A stretch of 22,180 nt of DNA from a virus. The stretch spans positions 1 through 22,180 of IMG/VR virus record IMGVR_UViG_3300032240_000612; one strand, given 5' to 3'. Under the pieces are notes generated by a model. It did not search any database and was not told where the DNA came from. It worked only from the letters and a program-made list of their open reading frames with translations. The stretch's first letter is position 1. Each line of letters opens with the position of its first letter. Shown here piece after piece: positions 2,760-21,122 of the stretch. The position numbers were made by a program, and so were the translations under genes.

Positions 2760-5288
2760 ATGAGTAAATATTACACAAACGTTGCAGTACACGGTAACAA
2801 CATATTGTTTCGTGGTGTAAACAATGGTCGGAGAGTTAAAGGCAAAGTCCCATACTCTCCGACGTTGTTTTTACAATCAAACAAACCTTCCGAATGGCGT
2901 TCATTGTTTAATGAACCATTGGAGCCTATGAAGTTTGAAACTATTAGGGAGACCAGAGATTTTGTTAAACGTTATGAAGAAGTTTCAAACTTTAAAATCT
3001 ATGGTAATACAAGGTATGAATACGCATTCATTGCTGACAATCATAGAGGCATCATTGATTGGGATATTTCTCATCTATCAGTTGTCATAATCGATATTGA
3101 GGTTGGATCAGAGAATGGTTTTCCTGATCCATACAAAGCGCATGAACCTATTACTGCTATTGCTATTCATCAATTGAATGGTGGTACGACAGTTTATGGT
3201 TGTGGTGAATATAAGGTGAAAGGTGAAGAAACATATGTCTTATGTGAAGATGAAATCGATTTGTGCAAACGGTTTCTTGCTGATTGGTCAGTCAATCCTC
3301 CTGACGTTGTTACTGGTTGGAATATCAAGTTCTTTGATATACCTTACATTGTTAATAGGTTTACACGTGTACTTGGCGAAGATAGCGTAAAGAAACTTTC
3401 TCCTTGGGGTGTGTATTCACAGCGTGATACCAAGTTCAAGGGTAAAGAACAAACAGTCTATGATATCGTTGGTGTTGCTGCATTAGATTACATGGAACTA
3501 TATCAATGGTATGCGCCTGGTGGTAAGTCACAAGAATCGTATCGTCTGGATAATATCGCACAAGTAGAACTTGGTGAAGGTAAGATTGCATATGATGACT
3601 ATGACAGTCTCCATGAATTGTATAGAGAGAACTATCAATTATTCATTGAGTATAACATTAAAGATGTACACTTGATTCTAAAGATGGAAGATAAGTTGAA
3701 GTTGATTGAATTGGCTTTGACTCTTGCGTATGATACCAAGTGTAACTATGATGATGTATTTGCACAAACACGCATGTGGGATGCAATCATCTATTCGTAT
3801 CTGCTCGATAAAAAGATTGTTGTTCCACCACGCCGTATTAGTAAAAAGACAGAAGCATTTGAAGGTGCATATGTTAAAGATCCACAAGTTGGTTTGCACA
3901 ATTGGGTTGCATCATTTGACTTGAATTCTCTGTATCCGCATTTGATTATTCAATACAATATCTCACCAGAAACATTAATTGATTCTGAGGACTATGATGA
4001 AAACATGAGGTCTTTGGCATCAAAAGCATCTGTCGATAAATTGTTGTATAAAGAATTGGACACTGATGATTTGAAAGATGTATCAATTACTCCAAATGGT
4101 CAATTCTTCCGAACGGACATACAAGGCTTTTTACCAAAGATGATGGAAGAAATGTATGAAGATCGAAAGAAGTTTAAAAAGTTGATGTTGAAGTCTCAAC
4201 AAGATTATGAGAATGAAAGTGATCCAAAAAAGCAATATGAAATTGAAAAACTAATTGCACGTTATAATAATCTACAATTAGCCAAGAAGGTATCGTTGAA
4301 CTCTGCTTATGGTGCTATGGGTTCACAGTATTTTAGATTTTATGATCTTCGTATGGCACTTGCTGTCACTACCGCTGGTCAGTTGTCTATTCGTTGGATC
4401 GAGAATAAATTAAACCAATACTTAAACAAACTACTAAAAACTGAAAAAGATTATGTTATCGCCTCTGACACAGATTCGATTTATCTCAACCTTGGTCCGT
4501 TGGTTGATAGCGTCTACAAAAAGGGAAAGGAACCTTCAGCAGTTATCACATTCATGGACAAGGTCTGTGAAGATAAAATTCAACCGTTCATCGATGAGAG
4601 TTATAAAGAACTTGCTGCGTATGTCCACGCATATGATCAAAAGATGATTATGAAACGTGAAGGTCTTTCAGATAAAGGTATCTGGACTGCCAAGAAACGT
4701 TACATTCTGAATGTGTACAACAATGAAGGCATTCAATATAATGAACCACATCTAAAGGTGATGGGTCTTGAGATGGTAAAATCTTCCACACCTGCTGCGG
4801 TGCGTGAGAAGATGCGACAACTTATCAAACTGATTGTCACCACTGATGAATTAACAGTGCAAACATTTATTGCCGAGTTTAAAGAACAGTTCAAATCATT
4901 GCCTGTTGAAGAGATATCTTTTCCGCGTGGATTGAATGGTTTGAGAGAATATTCGGACTCGTCTACGCTATATAAAAAAGGCACACCAATTCATGTAAAA
5001 GGTGCGATACTTTATAATCATTTCCTAAAACAACAGGGCTTGACAACTAAGTATCAGTCGATTCAAGAAGGTGAAAAACTAAAATTCACTTATCTTAAAT
5101 CACCGAATCCATTTAAAGACTCTGTGGTATCTTTCCCAACAAGATTACCAAAAGAGTTTGGTCTACAAGAATATATTGATTATGATCTACAGTTTGAGAA
5201 AACATTTCTTGATCCAATCAAAACTATTCTTGATTGTATTGGTTGGGAAACTGAAAAACAAAATACTCTAGATTCATTCTTCAAATGA
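2760..5288 (+). CDS. 43: DNA polymerase, family B, T4 gp43 type
   Basis: An 842-residue replicative polymerase with a complete 3'-5' exonuclease and polymerase. Exo I is D112-I-E114 (VVIIDIEVG), Exo II N188...F192-D193 (GWNIKFFD), Exo III Y298-x3-D302 (YNIKD). Polymerase motif A is D387-LNSLYP, motif B K510-x3-NSAYG518, motif C D570-TDS573. All catalytic acids are present. The C-terminus ends QNTLDSFFK, where Q834-x-x-L837-x-x-F840-F841 is a clean sliding-clamp-binding (PIP-like) peptide, as expected for a gp45-tethered enzyme. Length is slightly below T4 gp43 (898). No intein or intron interrupts it. A minicistron ATG AAT GAG TAA (2756-2767) overlaps the start, and no strong ribosome binding site is visible, so translation may be controlled or coupled; T4 gp43 is known to repress its own translation. 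Confidence 0.98.
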   Translation: MSKYYTNVAVHGNNILFRGVNNGRRVKGKVPYSPTLFLQSNKPSEWRSLFNEPLEPMKFETIRETRDFVKRYEEVSNFKIYGNTRYEYAFIADNHRGIIDWDISHLSVVIIDIEVGSENGFPDPYKAHEPITAIAIHQLNGGTTVYGCGEYKVKGEETYVLCEDEIDLCKRFLADWSVNPPDVVTGWNIKFFDIPYIVNRFTRVLGEDSVKKLSPWGVYSQRDTKFKGKEQTVYDIVGVAALDYMELYQWYAPGGKSQESYRLDNIAQVELGEGKIAYDDYDSLHELYRENYQLFIEYNIKDVHLILKMEDKLKLIELALTLAYDTKCNYDDVFAQTRMWDAIIYSYLLDKKIVVPPRRISKKTEAFEGAYVKDPQVGLHNWVASFDLNSLYPHLIIQYNISPETLIDSEDYDENMRSLASKASVDKLLYKELDTDDLKDVSITPNGQFFRTDIQGFLPKMMEEMYEDRKKFKKLMLKSQQDYENESDPKKQYEIEKLIARYNNLQLAKKVSLNSAYGAMGSQYFRFYDLRMALAVTTAGQLSIRWIENKLNQYLNKLLKTEKDYVIASDTDSIYLNLGPLVDSVYKKGKEPSAVITFMDKVCEDKIQPFIDESYKELAAYVHAYDQKMIMKREGLSDKGIWTAKKRYILNVYNNEGIQYNEPHLKVMGLEMVKSSTPAAVREKMRQLIKLIVTTDELTVQTFIAEFKEQFKSLPVEEISFPRGLNGLREYSDSSTLYKKGTPIHVKGAILYNHFLKQQGLTTKYQSIQEGEKLKFTYLKSPNPFKDSVVSFPTRLPKEFGLQEYIDYDLQFEKTFLDPIKTILDCIGWETEKQNTLDSFFK

Positions 5289-6193
5289 TAAACGCCATTC
5301 TACCATTTATTACTGCAATCGCTCTGTCTGGTATTGCAGCATACTATTCAGTTATTGGTCTTGCACAGATATTTCCTGGTTCATACTGGCCTATTATCAT
5401 TATGGGTTCGGTACTTGAAGCAGCAAAATTGGTAACAGTATCTTGGGTATACAATAACTGGAAAGAAACATTTTCTGCATTGAAAGTATATTTTCTGATT
5501 GCAGTTATATTGCTCATGGGTATAACTTCAATGGGTATTTTTGGCTATCTTTCAAAAGCACATATTGAACATTCATCAAGTATTGCACCATTGGTTGAAA
5601 AGGAATTTATTTATGATGAGAAGATCAAAACGCTTAAAGAAACCATCGAGACTAATCGCAAAAATGTCTTACAGTTGGATGCGGCTGTCGACCAAGTCAT
5701 GGCACGCTCGGCGGACGAAAGGGGGGCTGAGAGGTCGAACCAAATCCGCAAAGCCCAACAGAAGGAGCGCCTACGAGCGGCTGATGAGATTGCTAGGGCG
5801 CAGACCGAAATACAGAAAATTACGGAAGAAAAGTCTCCTATATCCTTGGAAATTAAAAAGGCTGAGTCAGACTTGGGGCCTATAAAATATGTGGCAGATG
5901 TAGTTTATGGCACACAAGATCGAGACTTAATTGATAAAGCAGTTAGATTAGTAATCTTTGTAATCATTGTGGTATTCGATCCACTTGCGGTATTATTATT
6001 GATTGCTGCTAATCAAACATACCGTAGAATAAAAGAAGAGAAAGTTAAACCTAAAATTAAAAAGGTAGTAAAAAAGAAAAAGATTGACAAGGATGACAGT
6101 CCTAGTTTAGAATCATTCTTAGTGGATGATAATCATCAAGTAATACGAAAAGATAATATTGCTAATATTGGAGATATAGATGAGCGTTCTTGA
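5285..6193 (+). CDS. Membrane-anchored coiled-coil protein between gp43 and uvsX
   Basis: A 302-residue protein with three N-terminal transmembrane segments (about 4-27, 34-56, 67-90), a charged coiled coil (about 104-200; KTLKETIETNRKNVLQL onwards), a fourth transmembrane segment (219-243, RLVIFVIIVVFDPLAVLLLI) and a Lys-rich tail. The start overlaps the gp43 stop as ATGA. Proteins of this layout sit beside replication genes in several marine T4-like phages, from memory; the function is not known. The position suggests tethering replication or recombination proteins to the membrane, or sensing membrane state, but this is inference. Codons for residues about 139-179 are strikingly different from the rest (5701-5820 is 58% GC by count, with AGG, GGG, TCG and CGC codons), coinciding with a nested +1-frame ORF. 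Confidence 0.85.
   Translation: MINAILPFITAIALSGIAAYYSVIGLAQIFPGSYWPIIIMGSVLEAAKLVTVSWVYNNWKETFSALKVYFLIAVILLMGITSMGIFGYLSKAHIEHSSSIAPLVEKEFIYDEKIKTLKETIETNRKNVLQLDAAVDQVMARSADERGAERSNQIRKAQQKERLRAADEIARAQTEIQKITEEKSPISLEIKKAESDLGPIKYVADVVYGTQDRDLIDKAVRLVIFVIIVVFDPLAVLLLIAANQTYRRIKEEKVKPKIKKVVKKKKIDKDDSPSLESFLVDDNHQVIRKDNIANIGDIDERS
5613..5885 (+). other. Candidate nested +1-frame ORF (90 aa, very basic)
   Basis: Inside the membrane-protein gene, in the +1 frame, ATG 5613 follows AAAAGGAA (5598-5605) and opens 90 codons to a TAA at 5885. The product would be highly basic (MMRRSKRLKKPSR..., then RRTKGGLRGRTKSAKPNRR). It spans the GC-rich, codon-shifted island of the host gene, which is what dual coding could produce. 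However, Arg-rich reading follows automatically from a GC-rich patch, the spacing to ATG is a little long, and no homologue is recognised. Low confidence. Confidence 0.2.
6084..6113 (+). promoter_or_regulatory. Candidate sigma70 promoter before uvsX
   Basis: TTGACA (6084-6089), an 18-base spacer and TAGAAT (6108-6113): 6/6 and 5/6 matches. It lies inside the end of the membrane-protein gene, with a predicted start near 6120, 60 bases before uvsX. A chance match inside coding sequence is possible. Confidence 0.4.
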
Positions 6194-8939: not shown

Positions 8940-10022
8940 ATGTTACAACCAAAAGATTTATTTGCTACTTTACAAAAGATAGACATACCACAATTGGTTC
9001 GACAAAAAAATGATAAATTTTGGGAAATCCCAATTAAAGAATATTCTAAGATTCTGAAAGGGGAAATACAAAAAAGTACGGAAATTCCATCAGAATCAAA
9101 AGGGTATCTTAAAGGTTTGGTTGATTTTATGGAAGGTAACACTACAGCAGATAATTTAAAAAAATTATATGTTAATAGTGGTAAACAAATAAAAACTGAA
9201 GATTTAATCAAAAATTTTGGAGAATTATTAGGGCCGTTTTTTGCACTTAAATTTCTTAGAGGTAGAACAGTACACAATATAGTTTTCCCAGTTCGACAGA
9301 ACTATGAAGTTTTTGATTTCTTCATTAAAAATGAACATTATTACGGTTTTAGTTCTAAGGCAGCATCGGGTGGTACAAACACATTGGCACCTAAACTTGT
9401 GGTCGAAAGATTAGATGCGATGAGTGATGACCGAGAATTTGCGAAATATCAGAAAGAGATTGTAGTTCTAAGAATTTTGACGAATAGTGGAATGTATGAG
9501 GGTATTGTTCTTGCCTTTGGTGAATTGTTAAAAGATTCCTCAACTAAAAATAAAATGGATATTCCTGCAATCAAATTGCAAGAAATATTTAAGGGTGTCA
9601 ATTTTAAAGATGATTCCACGAAATTTGAAACTTTTAAACTTAAAGAAATAACCGAAATAGGTTTAGAAAAACCTACAGCATATGCAAGGTTTTTAAATGA
9701 ATTCATTATTGATTCTACAAAAAAAGTTCCAGCACAAGAAATAAAAGATTATCAAAGTGGTAAAAAAGCATATACGAGTACAAATGTGGTTTACGGTTTA
9801 ACTAAAGTTATTGCAAAAACAGATTTTGACTTTGACTATGTTATAAATCAAGCGTTTCAAGATTTGAATGTCGTTAAAATGAGTATGAGTAAAGATGGAG
9901 TTCCTGCATTTAAAATGGTTTCAACGGTGGAAGCGGAAGACACTGTAAAAGGTGGTAATTATATATTTCGAAATAAAGCATCATTTACGAGAATAAATGA
10001 TAAGTTAGGTTTACAACTATAA
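8940..10022 (+). CDS. Unknown late protein, possible PD-(D/E)XK nuclease-like core
   Basis: A 360-residue protein preceded by AAGGA, the TATAAATA late promoter and the hairpin at 8909. I do not recognise the family. The region 95-160 has the order of a PD-(D/E)XK nuclease: E95 in a helix (GELLGPFFALKFL), then D126 on a strand (EVFDFFIK), then FSSK140 followed by AASGGTNT. The usual second acid would be replaced by Ser139. S-x-K or SSK variants followed by a Gly/Thr loop occur in some restriction-type nucleases, but this is a weak inference. There is no signal peptide, membrane segment or capsid-targeting N-terminus. Base composition is more AT-rich than gp41 or the following gene. The stop overlaps the next start as TAATG, tying it to the ligase-like protein. 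Confidence 0.8.
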   Translation: MLQPKDLFATLQKIDIPQLVRQKNDKFWEIPIKEYSKILKGEIQKSTEIPSESKGYLKGLVDFMEGNTTADNLKKLYVNSGKQIKTEDLIKNFGELLGPFFALKFLRGRTVHNIVFPVRQNYEVFDFFIKNEHYYGFSSKAASGGTNTLAPKLVVERLDAMSDDREFAKYQKEIVVLRILTNSGMYEGIVLAFGELLKDSSTKNKMDIPAIKLQEIFKGVNFKDDSTKFETFKLKEITEIGLEKPTAYARFLNEFIIDSTKKVPAQEIKDYQSGKKAYTSTNVVYGLTKVIAKTDFDFDYVINQAFQDLNVVKMSMSKDGVPAFKMVSTVEAEDTVKGGNYIFRNKASFTRINDKLGLQL

Positions 10023-11248
10023 TGAAATTTTTAGAATACATAACAGAAGCAAAAGAGGGCAAGAATGTTCACCTAGAACATCTTGAAGATAATGTATTGA
10101 ACAATGGCGTATCTGGTGCAAGGGAAGCAATCAACTTCCTGCGTTCACTCCGTAATATGTTAGCAGGTCATTCTGATGTTAAAGTAAATGTTACGACTAA
10201 ATGGGATGGCTCTCCTGCCATATTTGCAGGTATCAATCCAGAGAACGGTAAGTTCTTTGTTGGTACTAAATCTGTGTTCAATAAAAATGCCAAACTAAAC
10301 TATACTGATGCAGACATTGATGAGAATCATCCATCAGAAGGTCTGAATGATAAACTAAAGATTGCACTTGCATACTTACCTAAGTTAGGCATCAAAGGTA
10401 TTCTGCAAGGTGACATGATGTTTACCAAAGATGATCTGAAACACGAAACAATTGATGGTGAAGAATATATTATCTTTCAACCAAATACAATTGTATATGC
10501 AGTACCAGTAAATACTAAACTTGCAAAGATGATGATGGCTGCACAGATTGGTGTAGTATTTCATACAGCATACACTGGTAAAGATATCGAGAACATGAAG
10601 GCATCATTCAATATCGATATTGGTCACCTAACGACAACAAAAGATGTTTGGTTCCGTGATGCATCATTCACCGATGCATCTGGTTCTGCCACATTCACAG
10701 AAAAAGAAACTGCTGATCTCACATCCATTCTTTCACAAGCAGGAAGATTGTTTAATACAATATCAGCATTAACACTGAATAAGATATCATCATCGGAAAC
10801 TTATCTGATGCAAATCAAAACGTATAATAATACCAAAGTGCGTGAAGGACAAGAGATTCGTGACACCCGAGCACATGTAACTGGTTTGATGAAGTGGGTA
10901 GAAGATAGACTCAACAAAGAAATATTGGCAGCAAAGAAAGCAGATACTAAAGAGAAACGCATCAAAGAGAAAACAGAGGTCATGCGATTCTATCGAACCA
11001 ATGCCGCTCAATTAAAAAATATATTCGACCTGATGAACATGATTATTGAAGCAAAATTAATGATTATTCGTAAATTAGAAACTATCAAATCGATTGGTAC
11101 GTTTGTTCGCACAGAAGATGGTTTCAAAAGTACAGCACCAGAAGGATTTGTTGCTGTAGATAAACTAAAAGGTAATGCATTGAAACTTGTAGATAGACTA
11201 GAGTTCAGTCATCAAAACTTCACCGCATCTAAAAATTGGAGCAAATAA
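10022..11248 (+). CDS. Nucleotidyltransferase/ligase-like protein with capsid-targeting-like N-terminus
   Basis: A 408-residue protein. TTK60-W-D62-G63-SP looks like motif I (K-x-D-G) of covalent nucleotidyltransferases (DNA/RNA ligases, capping enzymes), with K60 as the candidate adenylated lysine. FFVGTKS (78-84) follows as in the hairpin after motif I. LQGDMMF (128-134) resembles motif III, APEGFV (372-377) motif IV and NALKLVDR (385-392) motif V. A long helical, charged insert (about 290-350) sits before motif IV. Similar WDGSP proteins occur in marine T4-like phages as unknowns, from memory. The N-terminus MKFLEYITEA resembles the T4 internal-protein capsid-targeting sequence with an I-T-E/A cleavage site. 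It is coupled by TAATG to the genes on both sides. The ligase call is inference from motifs; a polynucleotide substrate is likely but unproven. Confidence 0.85.
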   Translation: MKFLEYITEAKEGKNVHLEHLEDNVLNNGVSGAREAINFLRSLRNMLAGHSDVKVNVTTKWDGSPAIFAGINPENGKFFVGTKSVFNKNAKLNYTDADIDENHPSEGLNDKLKIALAYLPKLGIKGILQGDMMFTKDDLKHETIDGEEYIIFQPNTIVYAVPVNTKLAKMMMAAQIGVVFHTAYTGKDIENMKASFNIDIGHLTTTKDVWFRDASFTDASGSATFTEKETADLTSILSQAGRLFNTISALTLNKISSSETYLMQIKTYNNTKVREGQEIRDTRAHVTGLMKWVEDRLNKEILAAKKADTKEKRIKEKTEVMRFYRTNAAQLKNIFDLMNMIIEAKLMIIRKLETIKSIGTFVRTEDGFKSTAPEGFVAVDKLKGNALKLVDRLEFSHQNFTASKNWSK

Positions 11249-11520
11249 TGGAATATGATATCAATAAGATTATGGCGGAATATGGTGATGATGATTTTGG
11301 ATTCACCGCAGTTGATGAAGCAGAGTATGAAGCAGTCATTGCAGAGAAAGATGAAACGGTAGAAGAGTATAAAGCAAGATTGGCACAAGTAGAAAAGATT
11401 ATCATGCCTTTTCTGACTAATCTGTTAAAGTCACAAGCACAACCATATATACATTGGCCTAATCGTGGTCCAATTATTGAAAAACAAATTCAGAAAATAT
11501 TAGGATTGACCAGAGGATAA
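11248..11520 (+). CDS. Small acidic conserved-type protein
   Basis: A 90-residue protein from ATG 11248, sharing bases with the previous stop (TAATG), with GGAG 6 bases upstream. The N-terminal half is very acidic (YGDDDFGFTAVDEAEYEAV). A helix follows (ETVEEYKARLAQVEKIIMPFL), then a QPYIHWPNRGPIIEKQI end that resembles a small unnamed protein in marine T4-like phages (recalled only). The KARLAQVEK helix suggests a coiled coil or oligomer. It is part of the late-type operon, between the ligase-like gene and another MKTF-starting gene. No function assigned. Confidence 0.8.
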   Translation: MEYDINKIMAEYGDDDFGFTAVDEAEYEAVIAEKDETVEEYKARLAQVEKIIMPFLTNLLKSQAQPYIHWPNRGPIIEKQIQKILGLTRG

Positions 11521-11924
11521 TGAAAACATTTAAAGAACATTTACTTGAAACTAATATATATGATAAGGATGTGATAACTCTAGGTAAACTAGAAAAGACT
11601 GGAAAAATTGTTCGATTACTGAAAAAAGCACATACAGTTGCATTCAGTAAAGACAAAGATTGGTTAATGATTGATACTGATTTTGCTAGAGGCAAAAAGA
11701 GTAATAGTCAAAAATGGATACCCGCATCAACAAAGTTTAGTTGGGTAAAAGAATTTAACAATAAAGAAGATATGGCGTATTTGACAAATAAACCAATCCG
11801 TGAAAAACAAGAATTTGTTTCAAAAGCGGGTGCTGGTGAATGGGGTAGATCAGAACTTACAAACAAATATCTAAAGGATACTCCTGGTCAAAGTAAGAAA
11901 CTATATAAGAAACAGTTTAATTAA
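11520..11924 (+). CDS. Unknown small basic protein with capsid-targeting-like N-terminus
   Basis: A 134-residue protein coupled to the previous gene by TAATG. The N-terminus MKTFKEHLLET matches the pattern MK-x-F/Y-x2-F/H-[LI]-x-E seen in four late genes here and in T4 internal proteins, although the residue after E is Thr rather than Ala/Gly/Ser. The rest is basic and soluble (KLEKTGKIVRLLKKAHTVAFSKDKDWLMIDTDF..., then GEWGRSELTNKYLKDTPGQ), with no recognised motif. The DWLMIDTDF segment looks like a beta-hairpin core. The size and charge suit a DNA-associated internal head protein. It ends just before the glycan cassette. Confidence 0.8.
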   Translation: MKTFKEHLLETNIYDKDVITLGKLEKTGKIVRLLKKAHTVAFSKDKDWLMIDTDFARGKKSNSQKWIPASTKFSWVKEFNNKEDMAYLTNKPIREKQEFVSKAGAGEWGRSELTNKYLKDTPGQSKKLYKKQFN

Positions 11925-11942: not shown

Positions 11943-12785
11943 ATGAAAGATTTGATCGTTGGCTGTGCCACGAATTATGATTGGTCAAAATTAAAGTATT
12001 GGGTTAATTCCATCAACGCATCAGGATTTGAAGGTGATAAAATTCTGATTCTCATGAATTGTGATAAAGAAACCGTAGATAAAATTTCCGATTCGGGTTT
12101 CGGTATCATTGCATTCAATAAAGACGAAAACGATAATCTAACATATAACTCCAACATGATGGTTCATGTTGAGAGATTCTTTCATATCTATCAACTTCTA
12201 AAAGATAATCTGTATCGGTATGTGATTACTACCGATGTCAAAGATGTTATCTTTCAAAAGAATCCATCTGAATGGTTAGAAAAGAATTTACCGAATACTG
12301 AAGATTTGGTGTTCTCATCTGAGAGTATGAAGTATAAAGATGAGCCATGGGGTGATCAAAACCTACGAGAAACATTCGGCACGCAAATCTATGAAGATTT
12401 CAAAAATAATACCATTTTTAATGTAGGTGTTCTTGCTGGTCGTGGATATGCGATGAAAGATTTGATGATGAATATCTTTGCATCGTGTCTTGGTCGTCCA
12501 ATCAAAATCTGTGACCAATCAACATTCAATTTCTTGATCTCACAACATCCATATTTAAAAACTTCCATGTATACAAAATCGGAAGATGGATGGGCGTGTC
12601 AGTTAGGCACAACTGCCGATCCAAGTAAGATAGATCAGTTCCGTCCATTTCTACTTGAACCATCACCAAAATTAGATGATGATAAGGTTGTAACTTCGAC
12701 TGGAATAGAGTATACTATAGTACATCAATATGACCGTGTCCCTGAGTGGAAGAAAGTGATTGAGGCAAAATATGACGACAAATAA
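11943..12785 (+). CDS. Glycosyltransferase-like protein (GT-A type)
   Basis: A 280-residue protein with GAGG 5-8 bases before the start. The N-terminus KDLIVGCATNYDWSKLKYWVNSI and the YVITTDVKDVIFQKNP segment (93-108), with D98-V-K-D101 as DxD-like metal-binding acids, resemble GT-A glycosyltransferases that use nucleotide sugars. FNVGVLAGRGYAM (159-171) and CDQSTFN (about 190) are the expected acceptor-side loops, and VHQYDRVPEW closes the domain. It is the first gene of a seven-gene cassette and overlaps the methyltransferase by 14 bases. The sugar and acceptor are unknown. A role in decorating the virion or altering the host surface is inference from the neighbours. Confidence 0.78.
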   Translation: MKDLIVGCATNYDWSKLKYWVNSINASGFEGDKILILMNCDKETVDKISDSGFGIIAFNKDENDNLTYNSNMMVHVERFFHIYQLLKDNLYRYVITTDVKDVIFQKNPSEWLEKNLPNTEDLVFSSESMKYKDEPWGDQNLRETFGTQIYEDFKNNTIFNVGVLAGRGYAMKDLMMNIFASCLGRPIKICDQSTFNFLISQHPYLKTSMYTKSEDGWACQLGTTADPSKIDQFRPFLLEPSPKLDDDKVVTSTGIEYTIVHQYDRVPEWKKVIEAKYDDK

Positions 12786-13452
12786 TCTAAAAGAAATTTT
12801 CTGGAACTTAGAAAAAGGTTCGACTAAGTGGTCTGGATACTTTGATGTGTATGAACGACATCTAAGCAAGTTCATTGATAAAGCACCACGAATTCTTGAG
12901 ATTGGTGTTCTTGGTGGTGGTTCAATCGAGATGTGGTTGAAATACTTTGGTGAAGGCACACAGGTGATTGGCATTGATATTAATTCTGAATGCTTAGATT
13001 ACAAATATGAAGGCAATGCTAAAGTTGTCATGGGTGATCAAAGTTCTCCTGAGTTTTGGGATAAGTTCCTATCAGATCAAAATGGATTTGATATTGTGAT
13101 TGATGATGGTTCACATATCATGCTTCATCAGATTACTACATTGAATAAATTATTTCCAAAATTAAATGTTGGTGGTGTTTACATTTGTGAAGATACTCAT
13201 ACAAGTTATTGGCCACAACCTTGGGGTGGTTCGTTCCGTGGTGCTGGTACATTCTTAGAGCACTCTAAACGGACCACAGATATTCTGAATCAGCAACACT
13301 TTCAAGGTGCGCCAATTATGCCAGAGGTTCTATCAAACTATCATTGTTTATACTCTGTGGCATTTTATAACAGCATGGTTGTATTTGAAAGAGAAGCATT
13401 GAAGCCTTTTGGTATTACAGATAACCGTGATGGCACTGGAAGAGATTTATGA
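12772..13452 (+). CDS. SAM-dependent methyltransferase, class I
   Basis: A 226-residue protein from ATG 12772, with GAGG at 12763-12766; the TTG at 12760 is a weaker start. SAM-binding motifs: RILEIGVLGGGS (40-51), the acidic loop VIGIDIN (65-71), and FDIVIDDGSH (106-115), then a metal- or acceptor-side VYICEDTHTSYW (136-147). The IDDGSH plus ED pattern is typical of small O-methyltransferases acting on sugars or polyketides (macrocin/cephalosporin-hydroxylase-like branch). It probably methylates a sugar made or attached by neighbouring enzymes. It overlaps both neighbours, so it is translated with them. A protein substrate cannot be excluded. Confidence 0.85.
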   Translation: MTTNNLKEIFWNLEKGSTKWSGYFDVYERHLSKFIDKAPRILEIGVLGGGSIEMWLKYFGEGTQVIGIDINSECLDYKYEGNAKVVMGDQSSPEFWDKFLSDQNGFDIVIDDGSHIMLHQITTLNKLFPKLNVGGVYICEDTHTSYWPQPWGGSFRGAGTFLEHSKRTTDILNQQHFQGAPIMPEVLSNYHCLYSVAFYNSMVVFEREALKPFGITDNRDGTGRDL

Positions 13453-14162
13453 AGATAGCATTATGTATTTCTGGACAACCAAGAATGTGGGAAGAGGGAT
13501 ACAAGTATCATTATAAAAATATTATTGAAGGTAATGATGTAACTGTATTCTTACATTCATGGGAAATGCCGTCTGAACAAATGCAACAGATATCCTCAAA
13601 GTACGATGCTAAAAGTTTTATAACTTCTCCACAACCTACTGTTGACTTATCAAAATATACTAACACGCCACCACCATCTCCTAATTGGAAAGTTAAAGAT
13701 GGTAGATTTGCTACATTCTGTCAGTTGTTAGCAATTAAAGAGTGTATGAGAACTAAACGTGAGCATGAAGAGCAGTCCGGAATAAAATTTGATTGGGTCG
13801 TTAGGTCACGATTCGATTTTGCTATCAATGTACGAATACCTTTTGAAAATTTAGATAACAGCAAATTATACATTCCAGACTGCCGAATGACACCAACAAG
13901 AGATTTTGGTAATGATCAGTTTGCATTCTCATCATCAGAAAACATGGACAAGTATGCTGATGCTTATAATCATATTGACAATTTCTATTCGTCTGGTGTA
14001 CAATTCATGATGGAAGATTTTTTAAGTGCTAATTGGAAATTGCATGGTCTTGTTGGTGAAAATCTTATGTACTGTCATATCAATCATCCATTTCCACCTG
14101 GACCATATAATGGAACGCCACACTCTCTGATTAGGGAAGATTTTGAACATTGGCAAAAATAA
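13449..14162 (+). CDS. Glycosyltransferase-like protein of unknown specificity
   Basis: A 237-residue protein starting with an ATGA overlap. MKIALCISGQPRMWEEGYKYHYKNI is a Rossmann-like beta-alpha start with the GQPR signature seen in unnamed GT-A-like proteins of phage and capsule loci. FDWVVRSRFDFAIN has R119-x-R121-x-D123, a DxD-like nucleotide-sugar site in that group. YIPDCRM and GNDQFAFSSSENM resemble the following substrate loops. No membrane segment. It sits between the methyltransferase and a kinase, so a sugar-transfer role is likely by context; biochemical specificity is unknown. It contains the candidate promoter at 13975. Confidence 0.7.
   Translation: MKIALCISGQPRMWEEGYKYHYKNIIEGNDVTVFLHSWEMPSEQMQQISSKYDAKSFITSPQPTVDLSKYTNTPPPSPNWKVKDGRFATFCQLLAIKECMRTKREHEEQSGIKFDWVVRSRFDFAINVRIPFENLDNSKLYIPDCRMTPTRDFGNDQFAFSSSENMDKYADAYNHIDNFYSSGVQFMMEDFLSANWKLHGLVGENLMYCHINHPFPPGPYNGTPHSLIREDFEHWQK
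13975..14004 (+). promoter_or_regulatory. Candidate internal sigma70 promoter in the glycan cassette
   Basis: TTGACA (13975-13980), an 18-base spacer and TACAAT (13999-14004): 6/6 and 5/6 matches. It lies about 170 bases before the kinase gene, inside the preceding coding region. It could drive the kinase, NTP-transferase and epimerase group; a chance match is possible. Confidence 0.3.
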
Positions 14163-14173
14163 TAAGGAAACTT

Positions 14174-14896
14174 ATGGGTTACTCTAACAGTGAAGTAAAG
14201 ATTATGGAAGAAGATGGCCATATCTTTGTTCGCAAGTCTGGCGACATTCAAAGAAACTTGGAAAGATACGATGCTCTTGCTCACTTGGGGTTGCGAACGC
14301 CACTCATATATGAAATCGTAGGAGAATACTATGATATGGAATACATCAAAAACTTTGACATAATCAAATACTTTTCAACACATTCTGCATTTGAACTGGG
14401 TAATTTTCTGATCAATACGATAGATACACTTTCTAAAGATTATATTGAAGCAGATTATTCTAAAGTGTATTTTGATAAACTGAATGGATTTAATTTTGGT
14501 GCATACAATCTACCATTTACTGCCGATGAATTAATTAGCAGATTACCCAAATTCTTACCAATGTCTGAGTATCATGGTGACATGACATTACAGAATATTC
14601 TTTATAATGCCGAAGCAAAAGATTTTGTTTTGATCGATCCCTTGACAACCGAGTATAGTTCTTATGTGTTTGATCTTGCTAAGTTGCGTCAGGATATAGT
14701 TTGTAAATGGTTTATTCGAAATGAGAAAGTTTTCTTTGATCCTAAATTACAAGTTTTGGATAAGATGCTAAGTAAATATGAACACTACAACAATGATTAC
14801 CTATTAATATTGATGCTTCTTCGTGTTTTACCATATGCTAAAACTGTTGAGGATGAAACCTTTTTGAGAGATAAGATTACATTACTATGGAAATAA
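14174..14896 (+). CDS. APH/choline-kinase-like small-molecule kinase
   Basis: A 240-residue protein from ATG 14174, which has AAGGA 5 bases upstream; the TTG at 14150 lacks one. H134-G-D136-MTLQN141-IL is the catalytic loop of the aminoglycoside phosphotransferase/choline kinase family (HGDxxxxN), and VLIDP (D155) is the metal-binding DFG-equivalent. The N-lobe is short (HIFVRKSGD carries a candidate ATP lysine). It is followed at once by a nucleotidyltransferase, the order known from licA/licC-type phosphocholine loci and from capsule loci that activate alcohols as CDP derivatives. The substrate may be an amino alcohol, sugar or glycerol-like alcohol; the sequence does not say which. It overlaps the next gene by 10 bases. 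Confidence 0.78.
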   Translation: MGYSNSEVKIMEEDGHIFVRKSGDIQRNLERYDALAHLGLRTPLIYEIVGEYYDMEYIKNFDIIKYFSTHSAFELGNFLINTIDTLSKDYIEADYSKVYFDKLNGFNFGAYNLPFTADELISRLPKFLPMSEYHGDMTLQNILYNAEAKDFVLIDPLTTEYSSYVFDLAKLRQDIVCKWFIRNEKVFFDPKLQVLDKMLSKYEHYNNDYLLILMLLRVLPYAKTVEDETFLRDKITLLWK

Positions 14897-15900
14897 TTAT
14901 GCCTTGTGCTGGTTTATCAACCAGATTCCCTGATATGCGACCAAAATATCTTCTAACGGATTATTCTGGTGAGTTGATGATAAAGAAGGCAGCAAAGAAT
15001 TTCATTGGTAAGCACAAAATTACCATAATCATTTTGAGAGAGCACGATGAAAAATATAATGCCAGACAAAAAGTGAGTGAAGCATTTGATGGTAAAGTTC
15101 GCATAATTACCTTAGATAAAGAGACTGATGGTCCAGCACACACTGTTTACATGGGAATTGAGAAGGCAGGTATCGATCTTGATTCACCAATTTTAATCAA
15201 AGACTGTGATGGGTTCTATGATACTGATTTGGTAGAGGGTAATGCAATCTATGTTTCCAAGTTGTCTGATAATCCAAATATCAGAAATGCTCCAGCAAAA
15301 AGTTATACACTTTCAAACGAACAACGCATAATCAATACGGTCGTAGAGAAACAAATCGTCAGCAATCATTTCTGTGCAGGTGGTTACCAATTTGCTAGAG
15401 CAGGTGATTTCTGTAATACATTTGATGATTTGGTTTATAGTGGTGAGTTATTTGTTTCTAACATTATCGACAAGATGATTGCTGATGGAAAGATTTTCGT
15501 TGAGGCAGATGTTAAAAACTTTATTGATGTTGGGACGGCACAAGATTGGTTTGAATACAATGATAAACCAACATACTTCTGCGACATTGATGGTACGATT
15601 ATTGAAACACTGAAAGATTACTATGATGATTATGTACCTCTACAAAGTAATATTGATGCCATAAAAAAAGAAATGAATCGTGGTTGCAAGGTCATATTCT
15701 GTACAGCAAGAGGTAAAGAATTTCATTTCATAACACGATCAATGCTCAATGATTTAGGATTCAGAGAGTGTGAATTGATCATGGGTGTGCATCATTCTAA
15801 ACGCATTTTGATTAATGACTTTGCCAACACGAATAGATTTCCAACTGCTGGTGCAATTAATTTACCACGGGATAGTGATACTCTGAAAGATTATCTATGA
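14887..15900 (+). CDS. Nucleotidyltransferase (NTP_transferase) fused to HAD phosphatase
   Basis: A 337-residue bifunctional protein. Residues 1-225 form a sugar-phosphate/alcohol-phosphate nucleotidyltransferase: MPCAGLSTRFP (G9-x-S-T-R-F14, NTP loop), RPKYLL with K20, KDCDGF with metal-binding D106/D108, and a DVGTAQDW end. Residues 228-337 form a HAD phosphatase: D233-I-D235-GT nucleophile motif, CTAR threonine motif region (about 273-276), and a late INDFA acid motif. It would activate a phosphorylated compound with CTP or another NTP and remove a phosphate from an intermediate. Directly after the kinase gene, this suggests phosphorylation, nucleotidyl transfer and dephosphorylation in one small pathway. 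Both active sites look intact. The identity of the product is not predictable. Confidence 0.85.
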   Translation: MEIIMPCAGLSTRFPDMRPKYLLTDYSGELMIKKAAKNFIGKHKITIIILREHDEKYNARQKVSEAFDGKVRIITLDKETDGPAHTVYMGIEKAGIDLDSPILIKDCDGFYDTDLVEGNAIYVSKLSDNPNIRNAPAKSYTLSNEQRIINTVVEKQIVSNHFCAGGYQFARAGDFCNTFDDLVYSGELFVSNIIDKMIADGKIFVEADVKNFIDVGTAQDWFEYNDKPTYFCDIDGTIIETLKDYYDDYVPLQSNIDAIKKEMNRGCKVIFCTARGKEFHFITRSMLNDLGFRECELIMGVHHSKRILINDFANTNRFPTAGAINLPRDSDTLKDYL

Positions 15901-16916
15901 ACATTATGATTACTGGAGCAGCAGGTGGCATTGGTTCAACACTTGCATTAGAATTGACCAAGAAGGGCAATAAAGTAATTGCAATTGATAACCTTGCAAA
16001 TGGATATTATCAAAATCTCTACGAAGATGGTAAAAAATTCTGTACATTTTATCAGCGTGATATTAAAGATGATTTATCAATTTCGTATGCACTAGAGAAG
16101 GAAAATATTGATACTGTTATTCATCTTGCCGCAATCACTTCATTACCATCTGCTGAATCGAATCCTTACAAAACGATTGATGTGAATGTTGCAGGTACTG
16201 TTGCACTTCTAGATGCTATACGACATTCAAATGTCAAACGCACCATCGTTGCAAGTACCTCTGCAATTTACGAAAATACTTTGAACTGGTCTAAGGCACC
16301 ACTCAAAGAATATGTTGATGTTAGTCCTAGATTGATGTATCCTCTGTCAAAGAAAATGATGGAAGATGTCATCGAATCATATAGGATGAACTATGGTTTA
16401 GATATTGTAACTCTAAGATTTTTTAATGTATTTGGTCCACGCCAAGATATTCATCGTAAATCTCCACCATTGATCAATTATATCGCACGATGTGTTCATG
16501 AAGGAATTGAAGCAACATTTTATTCTGATGGAACACAACAAAGAGATTATGTTCATGTTGATGATGTTGTAGAAATGATTTCTTTGTGTATGATTGCACC
16601 AGAAGCAGCAGGAAAAATATTTAATGTTTGCACTGGTACAGCCACATCAGTAAAAGATATTATTAATTATGCTGAGAAAGCATACGGCAAGTTTGAATAC
16701 AAATTCTCACCTAGTGAAAAATACTGGGGCGATTATAGCATATTGCACCACGGTTCATATCCTCTGAAACCAGAAGTTATTGCTAAAGAAGTTAATAAGT
16801 ATGCAGTAGGTTCTTATGATAGAGCAAAGCGTATTTTAGGATGGAACCCAAACACTAACATAGAAGAATTGATGATTAAAACATTTAAAGAAAGTTTAGA
16901 GAGATTGAACAAATGA
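15897..16916 (+). CDS. NAD-dependent epimerase/dehydratase (extended SDR, GalE-like)
   Basis: A 339-residue nucleotide-sugar-modifying enzyme. The Rossmann motif is G7-AAGGIG13, with D31 for the NAD ribose. HLAAIT (76-81), the ASTSAIYEN strand (119-127) and catalytic Y148-PLSK152 form the active site, and RFFNVFGPRQ (near 174-183) and QQRDYVHVDDV (near 216-226) are classic extended-SDR landmarks. These enzymes epimerise or dehydrate UDP-, GDP- or dTDP-sugars. It lies in the middle of the cassette with ATGA overlaps on both sides. It is the strongest evidence that the cassette handles nucleotide sugars. Exact sugar unknown. Confidence 0.92.
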   Translation: MNIMITGAAGGIGSTLALELTKKGNKVIAIDNLANGYYQNLYEDGKKFCTFYQRDIKDDLSISYALEKENIDTVIHLAAITSLPSAESNPYKTIDVNVAGTVALLDAIRHSNVKRTIVASTSAIYENTLNWSKAPLKEYVDVSPRLMYPLSKKMMEDVIESYRMNYGLDIVTLRFFNVFGPRQDIHRKSPPLINYIARCVHEGIEATFYSDGTQQRDYVHVDDVVEMISLCMIAPEAAGKIFNVCTGTATSVKDIINYAEKAYGKFEYKFSPSEKYWGDYSILHHGSYPLKPEVIAKEVNKYAVGSYDRAKRILGWNPNTNIEELMIKTFKESLERLNK

Positions 16917-17608
16917 AGAAGAATCTTTTTATTGTAACCTCAGCACTGAATGCTGATATGGGTGTAGTAAACCGTAAAGACAGATTTGATCAAACTGTAA
17001 AAGGTTTACTATCAATTCGTAAGTATGATCCTGATGCGATAATTCTTTTGACTGATGGTTCGCCAACTAAAATTGATGATGAGAAAGTAAAAGCACTTGC
17101 ACACTTTGTCAATTTTGCTTCTGATTTTTCCGATGATAGACAAATAACGGACTTGGCTTCCAATCATCAAAAAAGTGCGGCGGAAAATCTTTTGATGTTA
17201 AAAACGTTAATGCTTTTACAGCAAGATGAAGGTATGAAAGAAGTTATGCGTAATGTTGGTCGTGTATTTAAAATATCGGGTAGAACAGATTTGACTGATG
17301 CGTTTAACGTTGAAGAACACATGATACCTGGCAAATATGTGTTTAAGAAACGCATGCCCACTTGGTTGACAGATTCTCGTAAAGAATTTGCTACTGATCT
17401 ACTGATTACTAGAATGTTCTCTTTTTGTCCAACATTAATGGATAATTATATGTTGTTGTGTGAGAACAATATTCCTTTGATTTTACAGACTGTAATCGAT
17501 ACGGAACATGCTCATTTCGTCAATATACCTAAAGATTTACTGGTAGAATTAGATGAAATCCACTGCACAGGCATAGTTGCTGGCACAGGCACGGTTGAGA
17601 ATTACTAA
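16913..17608 (+). CDS. Unknown cassette protein, glycosyltransferase-like
   Basis: A 231-residue protein starting with an ATGA overlap. KKNLFIVTSALNADMGVVNRKDRFDQTVKGLLSI is a Rossmann-like opening, IILLTDGSPT a second strand, and VFKISGRTDLTDAFN (R-x-D near 144) resembles the donor-binding region of unnamed capsule/LPS glycosyltransferase-like proteins. FVNIPKDLLVELDEIHCTGIVAGTG is a distinctive end that I associate with marine phage proteins of unknown function. It closes the cassette; the CTAAATA late-type motif begins at its stop codon. Assignment to glycosyl transfer is by context and faint similarity only. Confidence 0.68.
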   Translation: MKKNLFIVTSALNADMGVVNRKDRFDQTVKGLLSIRKYDPDAIILLTDGSPTKIDDEKVKALAHFVNFASDFSDDRQITDLASNHQKSAAENLLMLKTLMLLQQDEGMKEVMRNVGRVFKISGRTDLTDAFNVEEHMIPGKYVFKKRMPTWLTDSRKEFATDLLITRMFSFCPTLMDNYMLLCENNIPLILQTVIDTEHAHFVNIPKDLLVELDEIHCTGIVAGTGTVENY

Positions 17609-17646: not shown

Positions 17647-20058
17647 ATGAAATTTAGAGATTTTCTGCGTGAGCAGAAGGAAAAACATGCTGTACTAGCA
17701 TTTGGGCGTATGAATCCAATTACTTCTGGTCACGAAAAATTAGTCAAAAAAGTCAAAGATATTGCCGATTCTGTCGGTGGTTCTCATCACATCGTTCTGT
17801 CACACTCACAAGACTCCAAGAAGAATCCTCTTACCGCAGCACAAAAACTCAAACACGCCAAACGTGCATTTCCTGGTACCAATTTTTCTACATCCGATAA
17901 AGAGCATCCAACATATTTAAAACAAGCGGAGAAATTACACAAACAAGGTGTAACTCATCTTCATATGGTTGGTGGTTCGGATCGTGCCGAAGATTTTAAA
18001 AAGTATCTTAATCAATACAATGGAACACACAAAGGTGCATTGTATAATTTTAAATCCATTACAGTACACTCTGCTGGTAAACGTGATCCAGATGCAGAAG
18101 GTACAACTGGCATTTCAGCATCTAAAATGCGTGAACATGCGGGCAAAGGTAACTTTAAAGAATTCAGAAAAGGTGCTCCATCTACAATGTCGGATGAACA
18201 TATCAAACAAATGTACAATGATGTTCGTAGAGGAATGAATCTACATGAATCTATTCTAGCAGAAGGTGTACATGATAAAGGTATATTCAAAGCAGTATTT
18301 TTAGGTGGCGGTCCTGGTTCTGGTAAAGATTATGTTCTATCGAATACCCTTGATGGACATGGTATGATCGAAATCAATTCAGATAAAGCATTAGAGTATC
18401 TGATGGATAAAGAAAATCTCGACAAAAAAATGCCAGATAATGAAGAAGCACAACGTAATGTTATTCGTAAGAAAGCAAAAGATGTTGCTGAGATTCGTCA
18501 CCTTATGGCACTTCAAGGACGGAATGGATTGATCATTAATGGTACTGGTGCTGATCCACAAGAATACATGGAGATTAAAAAACGTCTGGATAAGTTGGGT
18601 TATGATACTTCAATGATCATGGTTAATACCGCAGATGAAGTATCAAAAGCAAGAAATATTGAACGAGGTCAGAATGGCGGTCGTACAGTACCAGAACATA
18701 TTCGTAAACAAAAGTGGGAAGCAGTGCAAGCAGCACGTACCGAGTTTGGTAAAATATTCCGTAATAATTACATTGAGTTTGACAACTCTGAAGATTTGCG
18801 TAATGCATCACCTGATGTTGTAAAGGCAAAAAAAGAAGAGATGATGCAAATTCACAAAGAGATAGAAAAGTTTGTGAGTGCTCCTCCTAAGAATGAAAGA
18901 GCAAAACATTGGATTGCAACTCAATTAGGTCAAAAAGATACACAACCAATCAGTAAGACATCAAGACCTCATCCAACTGCAAAAGCAAGTCAAGAAATGG
19001 ATACGATGGGTCTTGAGTATTATGGATTTGGTCGCTACGGTAAGAATGGTAAAGTAACACATCGTTCAGTTCATGATAGATTAGTGCCTGTTGAAAAGAT
19101 TGCTAAGACAGTTGAAACTCATCAAAATAAAAATGCTAAGGCTTCTGGTATACAACCAAATCGTTCTGGTTCCGCTGTAAAAGTTAGAACAGAACCTAAT
19201 AGGCATGTTCGTAAAAGAGATGCAAACAAAAAAGTCAATGAGGCATTTGAAGATTTCTTGCTAGAAGCAGTCACAGTTACAATCACTGGTGACACCGCAG
19301 AAGAAGTCAACAAAATGTTTAAGATGTTGAAAAACGAAGGTGACATAAAAGATGAAGTTGAAGAATCAAATGAAACCTATGGCACTTCACTTTCAAGTAA
19401 TGGTGCCTATAATGCTTTAACACTAGGCAAACATATGGTTATTGAAGAAACTCAAAAGAAACAAAAACTCATGTCTGACATCAATGGAAAACCAAGAGTG
19501 TTCCATTTCCGCATGTCGGCAGCAAAAGAAGCACATCGTAACAATGGTATCGTTCACAAAGTTGGAAAAACTTATGTTGTCAAAATTAGAGAGGACTTAA
19601 ATGAAATATCTTCACCAGATAATAATGCTATTGAAGCAATTTATGGACAAAATTTCTCCACCCCCGATGCAAAACAACTCGGTAAAGTTGGAACCAATTT
19701 TAGACCAAAAGGAAAGCCAGTCCTCGACAAACCAGTCGGCGAATCTTACGGAAGCGGAAATCAAACCCGCACCAAAATTACCCTCACCAAAATCAAAGAA
19801 AACTGGAGCAAGAAAGTCCAAGAGTCAATCGACAAAGGGATAGAGCCTGGTATTTCAATGGCAGGTGCTGGTGAATCATCCGCAAGAGATATGGGTGAGA
19901 GATTGAGCAAAAAAGGTAAAGCAACACAAGTTGTACCATCTTCAATTTCTGAATTGACAGGTGACACAACAACTGCATCTATTGGCGATCAAAAAGAAGA
20001 TGAGTTGAATAAAAAAGGTATTTCTTTATCGTCATTCAAAAAGAAAAATTTCGTATGA
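17647..20058 (+). CDS. Multidomain late protein: nucleotidylyltransferase, P-loop kinase and extra modules (candidate head polyprotein)
   Basis: An 803-residue protein. Residues 1-10 (MKFRDFLREQ) are capsid-targeting-like. Residues 14-195 form an HxGH-type nucleotidylyltransferase: GRMNPITSGH29 and ISASKMREHA (156-165, the ISSTxxR-type motif). The S202-G207 stretch SILAEG is a boundary with an L-A-E/G site. Residues 213-410 form a P-loop kinase of zeta-toxin/polynucleotide-kinase type: GGGPGSGKD228 Walker A, DKA after the IEINS strand, NGT (298-300) and the GGRTVPEH lid. A low-complexity basic linker (425-530) leads to AFEDFLLEA (533-541) with an L-L-E/A site, then a small VTVTITGDTAEEVNKMFKML module, a KTYVVKIRED module and a C-terminal ISLSSFKKKNFV end. 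It follows a late-type promoter. Codons become C-ending over 19660-19840, where a nested ORF also lies. Domain calls are firm; packaging and processing are inference. Confidence 0.9.
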   Translation: MKFRDFLREQKEKHAVLAFGRMNPITSGHEKLVKKVKDIADSVGGSHHIVLSHSQDSKKNPLTAAQKLKHAKRAFPGTNFSTSDKEHPTYLKQAEKLHKQGVTHLHMVGGSDRAEDFKKYLNQYNGTHKGALYNFKSITVHSAGKRDPDAEGTTGISASKMREHAGKGNFKEFRKGAPSTMSDEHIKQMYNDVRRGMNLHESILAEGVHDKGIFKAVFLGGGPGSGKDYVLSNTLDGHGMIEINSDKALEYLMDKENLDKKMPDNEEAQRNVIRKKAKDVAEIRHLMALQGRNGLIINGTGADPQEYMEIKKRLDKLGYDTSMIMVNTADEVSKARNIERGQNGGRTVPEHIRKQKWEAVQAARTEFGKIFRNNYIEFDNSEDLRNASPDVVKAKKEEMMQIHKEIEKFVSAPPKNERAKHWIATQLGQKDTQPISKTSRPHPTAKASQEMDTMGLEYYGFGRYGKNGKVTHRSVHDRLVPVEKIAKTVETHQNKNAKASGIQPNRSGSAVKVRTEPNRHVRKRDANKKVNEAFEDFLLEAVTVTITGDTAEEVNKMFKMLKNEGDIKDEVEESNETYGTSLSSNGAYNALTLGKHMVIEETQKKQKLMSDINGKPRVFHFRMSAAKEAHRNNGIVHKVGKTYVVKIREDLNEISSPDNNAIEAIYGQNFSTPDAKQLGKVGTNFRPKGKPVLDKPVGESYGSGNQTRTKITLTKIKENWSKKVQESIDKGIEPGISMAGAGESSARDMGERLSKKGKATQVVPSSISELTGDTTTASIGDQKEDELNKKGISLSSFKKKNFV
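19601..19843 (+). other. Candidate nested +1-frame ORF (80 aa) with strong ribosome binding site
   Basis: Within the 803-residue gene, in the +1 frame, ATG 19601 follows AGAGAGGA (19588-19595) with 5-6 bases of spacing, as good a ribosome binding site as any in the window. The 80-residue product starts MKYLHQIIMLLKQFMDKI and continues rich in Pro, Ser, Lys and Gln. The host gene's codon use turns C-ending over 19660-19840, which fits selection on the second reading frame. No homologue or lipobox is recognised. The SD-like bases also encode Arg-Glu-Asp in the main frame, so chance is possible. Confidence 0.3.
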
Positions 20059-21122
20059 AGAAGTTTAATAAATTTTTAGAAGAAGCAAACAAATCTGGAG
20101 ATGCATCATTACATGATTGGTTTACTAAAAGCAAATCATCGGATGGTAAACCAGGATGGGTTCAGTTGGGTGGACGATATGCAGGCAAGTCGTGTGCTAA
20201 ACAACCAGGTCAAACTACGAAACCAAAATGTGGTAGTTCAAAAATGGCAGCATCGATGTCCGACAAAGAAGAGGATGCCGCAGCAAAGAGAAAAAGAGCA
20301 CAAGACCCTGATCCAAATAGAAGTGGCGCACCAATAAATGTTTCAACGGAAGGAAAGCGAAAGATGAAGGAAGAATGGAGTCAAAAATATAAAAGTTCAA
20401 TCAACTGCTCACACCCTAAAGGATTCAGTCAAAAGGCACACTGTGCTGGCAAGAAAAAACAGAATGAATCTACTGAAATGGAAATGACTTGCGAAGATTG
20501 TGGTATGTGCCAAACACATGGTAACCATTCACATGATACTTTAGGTGAAGCCTGTTGGGCAGGATATGAAAAAAAGGGAATGAAAACCATGTTTGGTAAA
20601 AGATATCCAAACTGTGTTAAAAAAGAAAGTATTGACGAATATATTGCTAAAAGTGAATGTCCAGAATGTGGTGGACTTATGGTGTCTGAAGATCAATTGG
20701 TAGAAGAAAAAGATGCATGTTATCATAAAGTAAAATCACGATACTCTGTATGGCCTTCTGCATATGCATCGGGTGCATTAGTTAAGTGCCGTAAAGCAGG
20801 TGCTGCAAATTGGGGAAACAAAACAAAACAAGAAGGAACTCAATTGAAAACTTTTAAACAACATTTAGAAGAAGCAACATATCAAGGTAAAGAAGTTGCC
20901 TTGAATAAGCCCATGGCGGGTGATGTAAAAAAATCCAAAGTTTATGTCGATCCAGATGGTGATGGCAAAGCACAAAAAGTAAACTTTGGCGATAAGAATC
21001 TTTCAATCAAAAAAGATCAACCAAAACGTAAGAGTTCATATTGCGCCCGTTCGGGTGGAATCAAAGGCACAAGCGATAAGACATCAGCAAATTATTGGTC
21101 AAGAAGGGCTTGGGACTGCTAA
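20055..21122 (+). CDS. Multi-module basic, Cys-containing late protein (candidate head polyprotein)
   Basis: A 355-residue protein overlapping the previous stop as ATGA. It reads as a string of small modules: MKKFNKFLEEA (1-11, capsid-targeting-like, L-E-E/A); LHDWFTKSKSSDGKPGW to CGSSKM (19-64), resembling DUF5872-type phage proteins; a QDPDPNRSGAPINVSTE stretch; YKSSINCSHPKGFSQKAHC (112-130); a Cys/His segment CEDCGMCQTHGNHSH (146-160); LGEACWAGYEKKGMKT (163-178); CPECGG (202-207), zinc-ribbon-like; CYHKVKSRYSVWPSAYASGA (222-241); then LKTFKQHLEEATYQG (264-278) opening a last module with YVDPDGDGKAQKVNFGD and YWSRRAW. Several of these segments occur as separate small proteins in marine phages, from memory. 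Basic charge and Cys pairs suggest DNA and zinc binding. Possible [LI]-x-E/A cleavage points lie after residues 10, 165 and 273. Confidence 0.85.
   Translation: MKKFNKFLEEANKSGDASLHDWFTKSKSSDGKPGWVQLGGRYAGKSCAKQPGQTTKPKCGSSKMAASMSDKEEDAAAKRKRAQDPDPNRSGAPINVSTEGKRKMKEEWSQKYKSSINCSHPKGFSQKAHCAGKKKQNESTEMEMTCEDCGMCQTHGNHSHDTLGEACWAGYEKKGMKTMFGKRYPNCVKKESIDEYIAKSECPECGGLMVSEDQLVEEKDACYHKVKSRYSVWPSAYASGALVKCRKAGAANWGNKTKQEGTQLKTFKQHLEEATYQGKEVALNKPMAGDVKKSKVYVDPDGDGKAQKVNFGDKNLSIKKDQPKRKSSYCARSGGIKGTSDKTSANYWSRRAWDC
20832..20846 (+). promoter_or_regulatory. Internal ribosome binding site and TTG start inside the 20055 gene
   Basis: GAAGGA (20832-20837) lies 6 bases before an in-frame TTG (20844-20846) that begins LKTFKQHLEEA, the internal copy of the late-gene N-terminal motif. 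Initiation here would give a separate 92-residue product (20844-21122). This looks like the start of a once-independent gene fused to its upstream neighbour, and it may still be used. Confidence 0.45.

Follow-up and report, generated by a model that had tools for sequence, protein, structure and literature searches.

The 803-residue protein encoded near the end of the viral DNA analysed here (the window, 22,180 nucleotides) is probably a polyprotein destined for the head of a T4-like marine phage and cut at its joints by the prohead protease. Sequence comparison shows it to be a fusion of once-separate proteins that bore targeting sequences, with the sites retained at the joints, and establishes where these sites lie, how they are conserved and, for the kinase, that the internal site is equivalent to an N-terminus. 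The assignment to a T4-like marine phage is indicated by the genes of the window, among them those for a DNA polymerase, a UvsX-like recombinase and a helicase, and by the occurrence of relatives in Kyanoviridae records (HTVC008M, Melnitz).

In the mechanism that we propose, the targeting sequence MKFRDFLRE would bring the 803-residue protein into the prohead core, where a gp21-type prohead protease would remove residues 1–9 and cut after Glu206 and Glu540. The products would be a free adenylyltransferase (residues 10–206), a piece comprising the kinase, the GLEYYG module and the basic tail (207–540), and the C-terminal modules (541–803), the last possibly cut further; we infer that the pieces remain in the head and enter the host with the DNA. 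Each internal site would once have been the targeting sequence at the N-terminus of an independent cargo protein and, on this proposal, would have survived the fusion through its continued use as a cut site; the site at junction 2 probably doubles as an additional core-binding signal.

The features concerned are listed in Table 1. The open reading frame and both sites, with Gly207 following SILAE and Ala541 following AFEDFLLE, are as described in the original prediction, which was made from the DNA sequence without database searches and placed the sites at domain boundaries. That placement agrees with the Pfam matches to CTP_transf_like (residues 17–163) and AAA_33/Zeta_toxin (residues 215–363) and with the cytidyltransferase PHROG matches, which end at residues 204–205. 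The single chain carries several distinct effector domains, namely the adenylyltransferase, the kinase and further modules, as identified by Pfam, PHROG and alignment. Its relatives, mostly full length, show 62–85% identity, and the protein and its relatives were aligned as a set of 36 sequences. The C-terminal part, which is poorly characterised, gave no match to annotated phages by tblastn, and no peptidase family was found in the protein in Pfam or PHROG scans.

Table 1. Features of the 803-residue protein and of other proteins with targeting-type N-termini in the window; cuts are those proposed.
Feature	Residues	Position	Strand	Evidence
Modular protein: adenylyltransferase, kinase, GLEYYG module, C-terminal modules	1–803	17647..20058	+	ORF, relatives, alignment
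Capsid-targeting-type N-terminus MKFRDFLRE, proposed cut before Gln10	1–9	17647..17673	+	Matrix score, conservation
HIGH-type nucleotidyltransferase, adenylyltransferase fold	14–199	17686..18243	+	Pfam CTP_transf_like, PHROG 3041/395, structures
Junction 1, HESILAE/G, proposed cut after nt 18264	200–207	18244..18267	+	Conservation in fused relatives, pLDDT
P-loop kinase, polynucleotide kinase / zeta-toxin type	207–428	18265..18930	+	Pfam AAA_33, Zeta_toxin; polynucleotide kinase structures
GLEYYG module	446–500	18982..19146	+	Conserved alignment block
Basic linker, predicted disordered	503–533	19153..19245	+	pLDDT <50; length varies among relatives
Junction 2, FEDFLLE/A, proposed cut after nt 19266	534–541	19246..19269	+	Matrix score, conservation, gp23 likeness
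TGDT module (VTVTITGDTAEEV...)	541–600	19267..19446	+	[LIVMF]xE directly in front, 16/16 instances
KQKL module (KKQKLMSDxNGKPRVF...)	603–655	19453..19611	+	Site in front, 26/38 instances
Downstream 355-residue protein, same build, N-terminus MKKFNKFLEE/A		20055..21122	+	[LI]xE sites, separate gene in L017
DUF6267 protein, targeting-type N-terminus MKFLEYITE/A		10022..11248	+	Pfam PF19782 E = 2.8e-119, relatives' N-termini
134-residue protein, targeting-type N-terminus MKTFKEHLLE/T		11520..11924	+	Sequence

Taken within this one sequence, the evidence for the sites is modest. The bare motif [LI]xE is not in excess in the 803-residue protein (nine occurrences against 6.4 in shuffled sequences, P = 0.30); the longer pattern [FYWH]..[FYHLIM][LI].E[AGSTQ], devised knowing the sites, gave two internal matches against 0.04 expected (P = 0.0003). 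We also scored all positions with a weight matrix for which 62 N-termini, all from proteins without either domain, served as the training set. The highest score, 15.6, was that of MKFRDFLRE/Q, in which F3, F6 and E9 are nearly invariant across the 36 relatives, and which fits the T4-type targeting pattern of a hydrophobic or aromatic residue at P7 and P4, [LI] at P3 and E at P1. Site 540 ranked first among the internal positions (11.8, shuffle P = 0.017) and site 206 fifth (2.8). The window alone thus gives good support to site 540 but weak support to site 206, and the case for the latter depends on the relatives, from which the evidence is strong. Chance was considered as the entire explanation and is ruled out by the relatives, in which both sites are conserved. 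The residues at the three sites, LRE/Q, LAE/G and LLE/A, all form the [LI]xE cleavage motif, of the same type as the sites in the relatives' capsid proteins.

For junction 1, a non-redundant set of 112 kinases was drawn from viral and genome contigs, 52 of them internal and 60 at the N-terminus of their ORF. The internal kinases have E at P1 and G at P1' without exception (52/52 each), L or I at P3 in 51 and F or H at P7 in 38. The outcome that the original prediction had named as contrary to it, domains that persist while the junction sequence does not, was not observed at junction 1. The N-terminal kinases have E at P1 in 60/60, G at P1' in 59/60 and L or I at P3 in 58/60. By this comparison, the site before the internal kinase is the separate kinase gene's own N-terminal targeting/cleavage-type sequence. 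The kinase begins MIPFILKE/GLYDPGIFKA in the Pelagibacter phage HTVC008M and MKTFAELQE/GVYDPNIFKA in Melnitz, and the corresponding internal sequence in the window is MNLHESILAE/GVHDKGIFKA; an alignment of six sequences shows no variation at the L, E and G positions. In both phages, the separate kinase gene begins at the site, and the view that once-separate targeted proteins were fused is well supported, the kinase being N-terminal in 60 of the 112 and other modules being likewise equivalent. All six codons are used for the P3 Leu and all four for the P1' Gly, showing that these residues are held by selection at the protein level. The kinase tree contains approximately six switches between N-terminal and internal positions, at least four of them on well-supported branches, but 50 of the 52 internal kinases fall within one large group, so the counts are not independent. 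In two relatives (L004 and L005), a module of approximately 70 residues is inserted exactly at junction 1, between ELSE/N and TLTE/G.

Two further features of the kinases may be recorded here. In the fused clade, the Walker A motif (window 18319–18330, residues 225–228) reads GGPGSGKD, with Asp replacing the Ser or Thr of the separate kinases (GSGKT, GSGKS). Two adenylyltransferase–kinase fusions that resemble each other closely occur on different kinds of contig, one viral (L053) and the other assigned by binning to Nitrospira lenta (L175), which may reflect a prophage or a binning error.

The conservation at junction 1 could also have a structural origin: L-x-E-G may form part of the kinase fold, as an N-terminal cap whose likeness to a protease site is incidental, with site 540 a remnant. 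V208 and D210 are just as strictly kept as E206 and G207, and part of the conservation of E206/G207 may therefore be structural. However, residues 200–209 are predicted to be disordered, the same [LI]xE precedes unrelated modules, and site 540 is conserved rather than decaying, and we regard the cap as the least probable of the three alternatives considered in this work. The prediction of disorder comes from an AlphaFold2 model based on the 36 sequences (mean pLDDT 66), in which pLDDT falls below 50 at residues 200–209 and 503–547, i.e. at both junctions, and the folded domains extend up to approximately residue 199 and from residue 210 to approximately residue 428.

The main alternative is that the protein is an uncut bifunctional enzyme of the NadR type, carrying out the consecutive steps from nicotinamide riboside to NMN and from NMN to NAD+, with the junction serving only as a hinge. 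Phage NadR proteins have been described as fusions of an adenylyltransferase and a P-loop kinase (PMC9503650), which is a point in favour of this reading, as is the best structure returned by Foldseek, NadR 6gyf, which has the same domain order. The matches listed by VIA-align count against it: PPAT and NMNAT structures fit the first domain with Z values of about 13–14, PPAT at approximately 14 and NMNAT just below; the kinase is nearest there to polynucleotide kinases (Z 15) and one putative kinase, and NadR is not among the matches listed. In addition, HTVC008M has separate genes for the adenylyltransferase and the kinase, which in Melnitz are widely spaced, each fused junction has the E/G seen at the N-termini of separate kinases, and an uncut enzyme of this kind would leave site 540 unaddressed. 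It therefore seems unlikely that the protein is a NadR, and we favour the polyprotein, which resembles NadR (NMN adenylyltransferase plus ribosylnicotinamide kinase) in having an adenylyltransferase followed by a P-loop kinase in one chain but differs in that its kinase is near to polynucleotide kinase, its domains are often separate genes, and a targeting sequence and sites at the joints are present.

At junction 2, columns 534–540 of the 36-protein alignment mirror columns 3–9. F534 (P7) is kept in 29 of 33 aligned relatives, position 537 is hydrophobic, P3 (residue 538) is L, F, I or M, and E540 is kept in 31 of 33; the most variable column is P2 (residue 539, 3.4 bits). Past residue 541, approximately half of the relatives have the TGDT module and others a DLRKWF module, and E540 is retained despite these differing downstream modules. 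The established site of T4 gp23, FGSFLTE/A, was recovered by the same pattern and resembles junction 2. Judged by the original criterion, conservation of the junction along with the domains, the result here is mixed: E540 is kept in 31 of 33, but four relatives (L004, L005, L015 and L105), all without the TGDT module, have AFEDLFE/[DE] or AFEDFFE/D instead, and junction 2, on this alignment, is not universal.

In the T4 targeting sequence, residues 4 and 7 are the main determinants of targeting, and residues 8 and 10 govern processing (PMC9026906); in our numbering, these pairs correspond to P7/P4 and P3/P1, respectively. The internal motifs might accordingly be extra core-binding signals that are never cut and that strengthen attachment to the prohead core through avidity. 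The targeting positions P7 and P4 are kept at junction 2, with F534 in 29 of 33, beyond what cutting by itself should demand, because the capsid-protein sites of the relatives have no aromatic P7. Against this, the most conserved positions are those used in T4 for processing, P3 and P1, and P7 and P4 vary more at junction 1. We consider uncut binding signals to be very unlikely as the whole explanation; it is rather as part of the polyprotein reading that the conserved P7 and P4 suggest that the motif at junction 2 may also still bind the core.

No prohead protease gene was found in the window, which is a record of only 22 kb in its entirety, so that much of the phage, including any such gene, is unseen. 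A Peptidase_S77 protein (gp21 type, the T4-type prohead protease) is encoded on seven of the 12 contigs with relatives and a gp23-type capsid protein on nine of the 12; in relatives such as L199 and L203, the two genes are neighbours or nearly so. All eight full-length gp23-type capsid proteins that we examined have [LI]xE/[ATG] near residue 52. Cytidylyltransferase homologues have been found by mass spectrometry in virions of S-SM1 (PMC3037559) and, as gp154, of S-CREM2 (PMC10665884), reports that concern homologues of the first domain only. Targeting-type motifs are present in the S-CREM2 virion proteins gp154, gp6, gp12, gp13 and gp14, and gp154, gp14, gp6 and gp13 were among the top hits when the matrix was applied to the ORF starts of every frame in that genome; scores above 8 were, however, also reached by several ORF starts that are unannotated or do not belong to virion proteins, and the link between matrix score and virion is therefore suggestive only. 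In gp12 (L193 4705–7314), a virion-detected 'Cas9-like' nuclease, the targeting-type motif, RFASFMAE/A, lies at residue 25.

The association of sites with module starts extends to other proteins. The motif [LIVMF]xE lies within four residues before the internal start of the TGDT module in 16/16 instances, DLRKWF in 22/24, YQGK in 14/14 and GGLN in 27/28, and less regularly before KQKL (26/38) and EGNIG (23/69), against a background at random positions of about 0.06–0.11, the module starts having been picked by eye. When boundaries were instead taken from blastp, as places where a module is N-terminal in one protein and internal in another, [LI]xE was nearby in 71 of 199, against 13% expected. 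Of the short modules, GRPSQ has the site in 10/10 internal and 3/3 N-terminal instances and ACYHK in 7/7. No site precedes the GLEYYG (0/53) or CSHPK (0/6) modules, and the rule therefore does not cover every module. The 355-residue protein encoded immediately downstream is, by its sequence, a candidate second polyprotein; it has [LI]xE at residues 10, 165 (LGE/A), 195 (IDE/Y), 217 (LVE/E) and 273 (LEE/A), at or just before the starts of its modules, which are SLHDWF, CWAGY, a CPECGG zinc ribbon-like module, an ACYHKV/DUF5872-like module and YQGK. One of these modules is a separate gene in L017, beginning MKTFKQHLEE/ATYQGK. Long proteins with the linkers EEVEQLDE or EEVEIDE repeated between small modules were also observed (L002 9996–11720 and 11689–13914, L023 5452), with up to seven linkers in one protein of 1431 residues.

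On balance, though by no great distance, we believe that marine T4-like phages bear a whole class of such head-cargo polyproteins, in which interchangeable units, namely enzymes and small modules of zinc-binding or basic character, would be joined by prohead-protease sites behind one N-terminal targeting sequence, separated within the prohead and injected together as a mixture. Old targeting sequences, serving as joints, would let modules pass between separate genes and polyproteins without loss of packaging or release.

In the open-access literature searched, we found no description of an effector polyprotein cut by a prohead protease, in agreement with the original prediction. The nearest known systems are the T4 internal proteins and Alt, the cut T4 core proteins and the polyvalent proteins. 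The T4 internal proteins and Alt, which are processed by gp21 (PMC9026906), share the N-terminal targeting pattern, the [LI]xE sites and the carriage of enzymes in the head, and the relatives encode a T4-type protease; in T4, however, the cargo consists of separate proteins with one N-terminal site each (Alt being also trimmed at its C-terminus), whereas here several cargo domains are combined in a single chain, two of whose joints each carry a site. Multiple cuts within one protein are made by gp21 in the T4 core proteins gp22, gp67 and gp68, but those pieces are scaffold debris that mostly leaves the head, whereas the pieces here would be folded enzymes and modules. In phiKZ and SPN3US (PMC5694885, PMC10052503), ejected proteins are matured by the prohead protease, with propeptides cut at several places; the portions of text searched describe removal of long propeptides and contain no domain-by-domain release of fused effectors. 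Polyvalent proteins (Iyer et al. 2017, PMC5512222) also combine several effector domains in one phage protein that is thought to be injected, and the same paper draws the polyprotein analogy and lists a zeta-toxin-like kinase domain. Release there is ascribed, for a subset, to an embedded peptidase (PMC5512222), whereas the protein described here has head-protease sites at its joints and no peptidase domain was matched.

If the proposal is correct, tailed phages make effectors for injection as polyproteins and rely on the head-maturation protease to process them, and the long mosaics of small modules among the 'hypothetical' proteins of cyanophages and pelagiphages would be accounted for. A rule readable from genomes – [LI]xE at module starts together with an MKxFxxFLxE N-terminus – would then predict head cargo and its mature pieces, and annotation, expression or structural work on the whole ORF may address a form that is absent from the virion.

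Two other regions of the window deserve mention. Between the genes of head-cargo type, positions 11943–17608 contain an apparent sugar/glycan gene block whose members, mostly assigned by eye, are glycosyltransferase-like, nucleotidyltransferase plus HAD hydrolase, NAD-dependent epimerase-like and methyltransferase-like. At positions 5285–6193, a membrane-type protein of 302 residues is encoded, with a sub-threshold match to Tetraspanin (E = 3.5e-5, 24 bits against a cutoff of 32).
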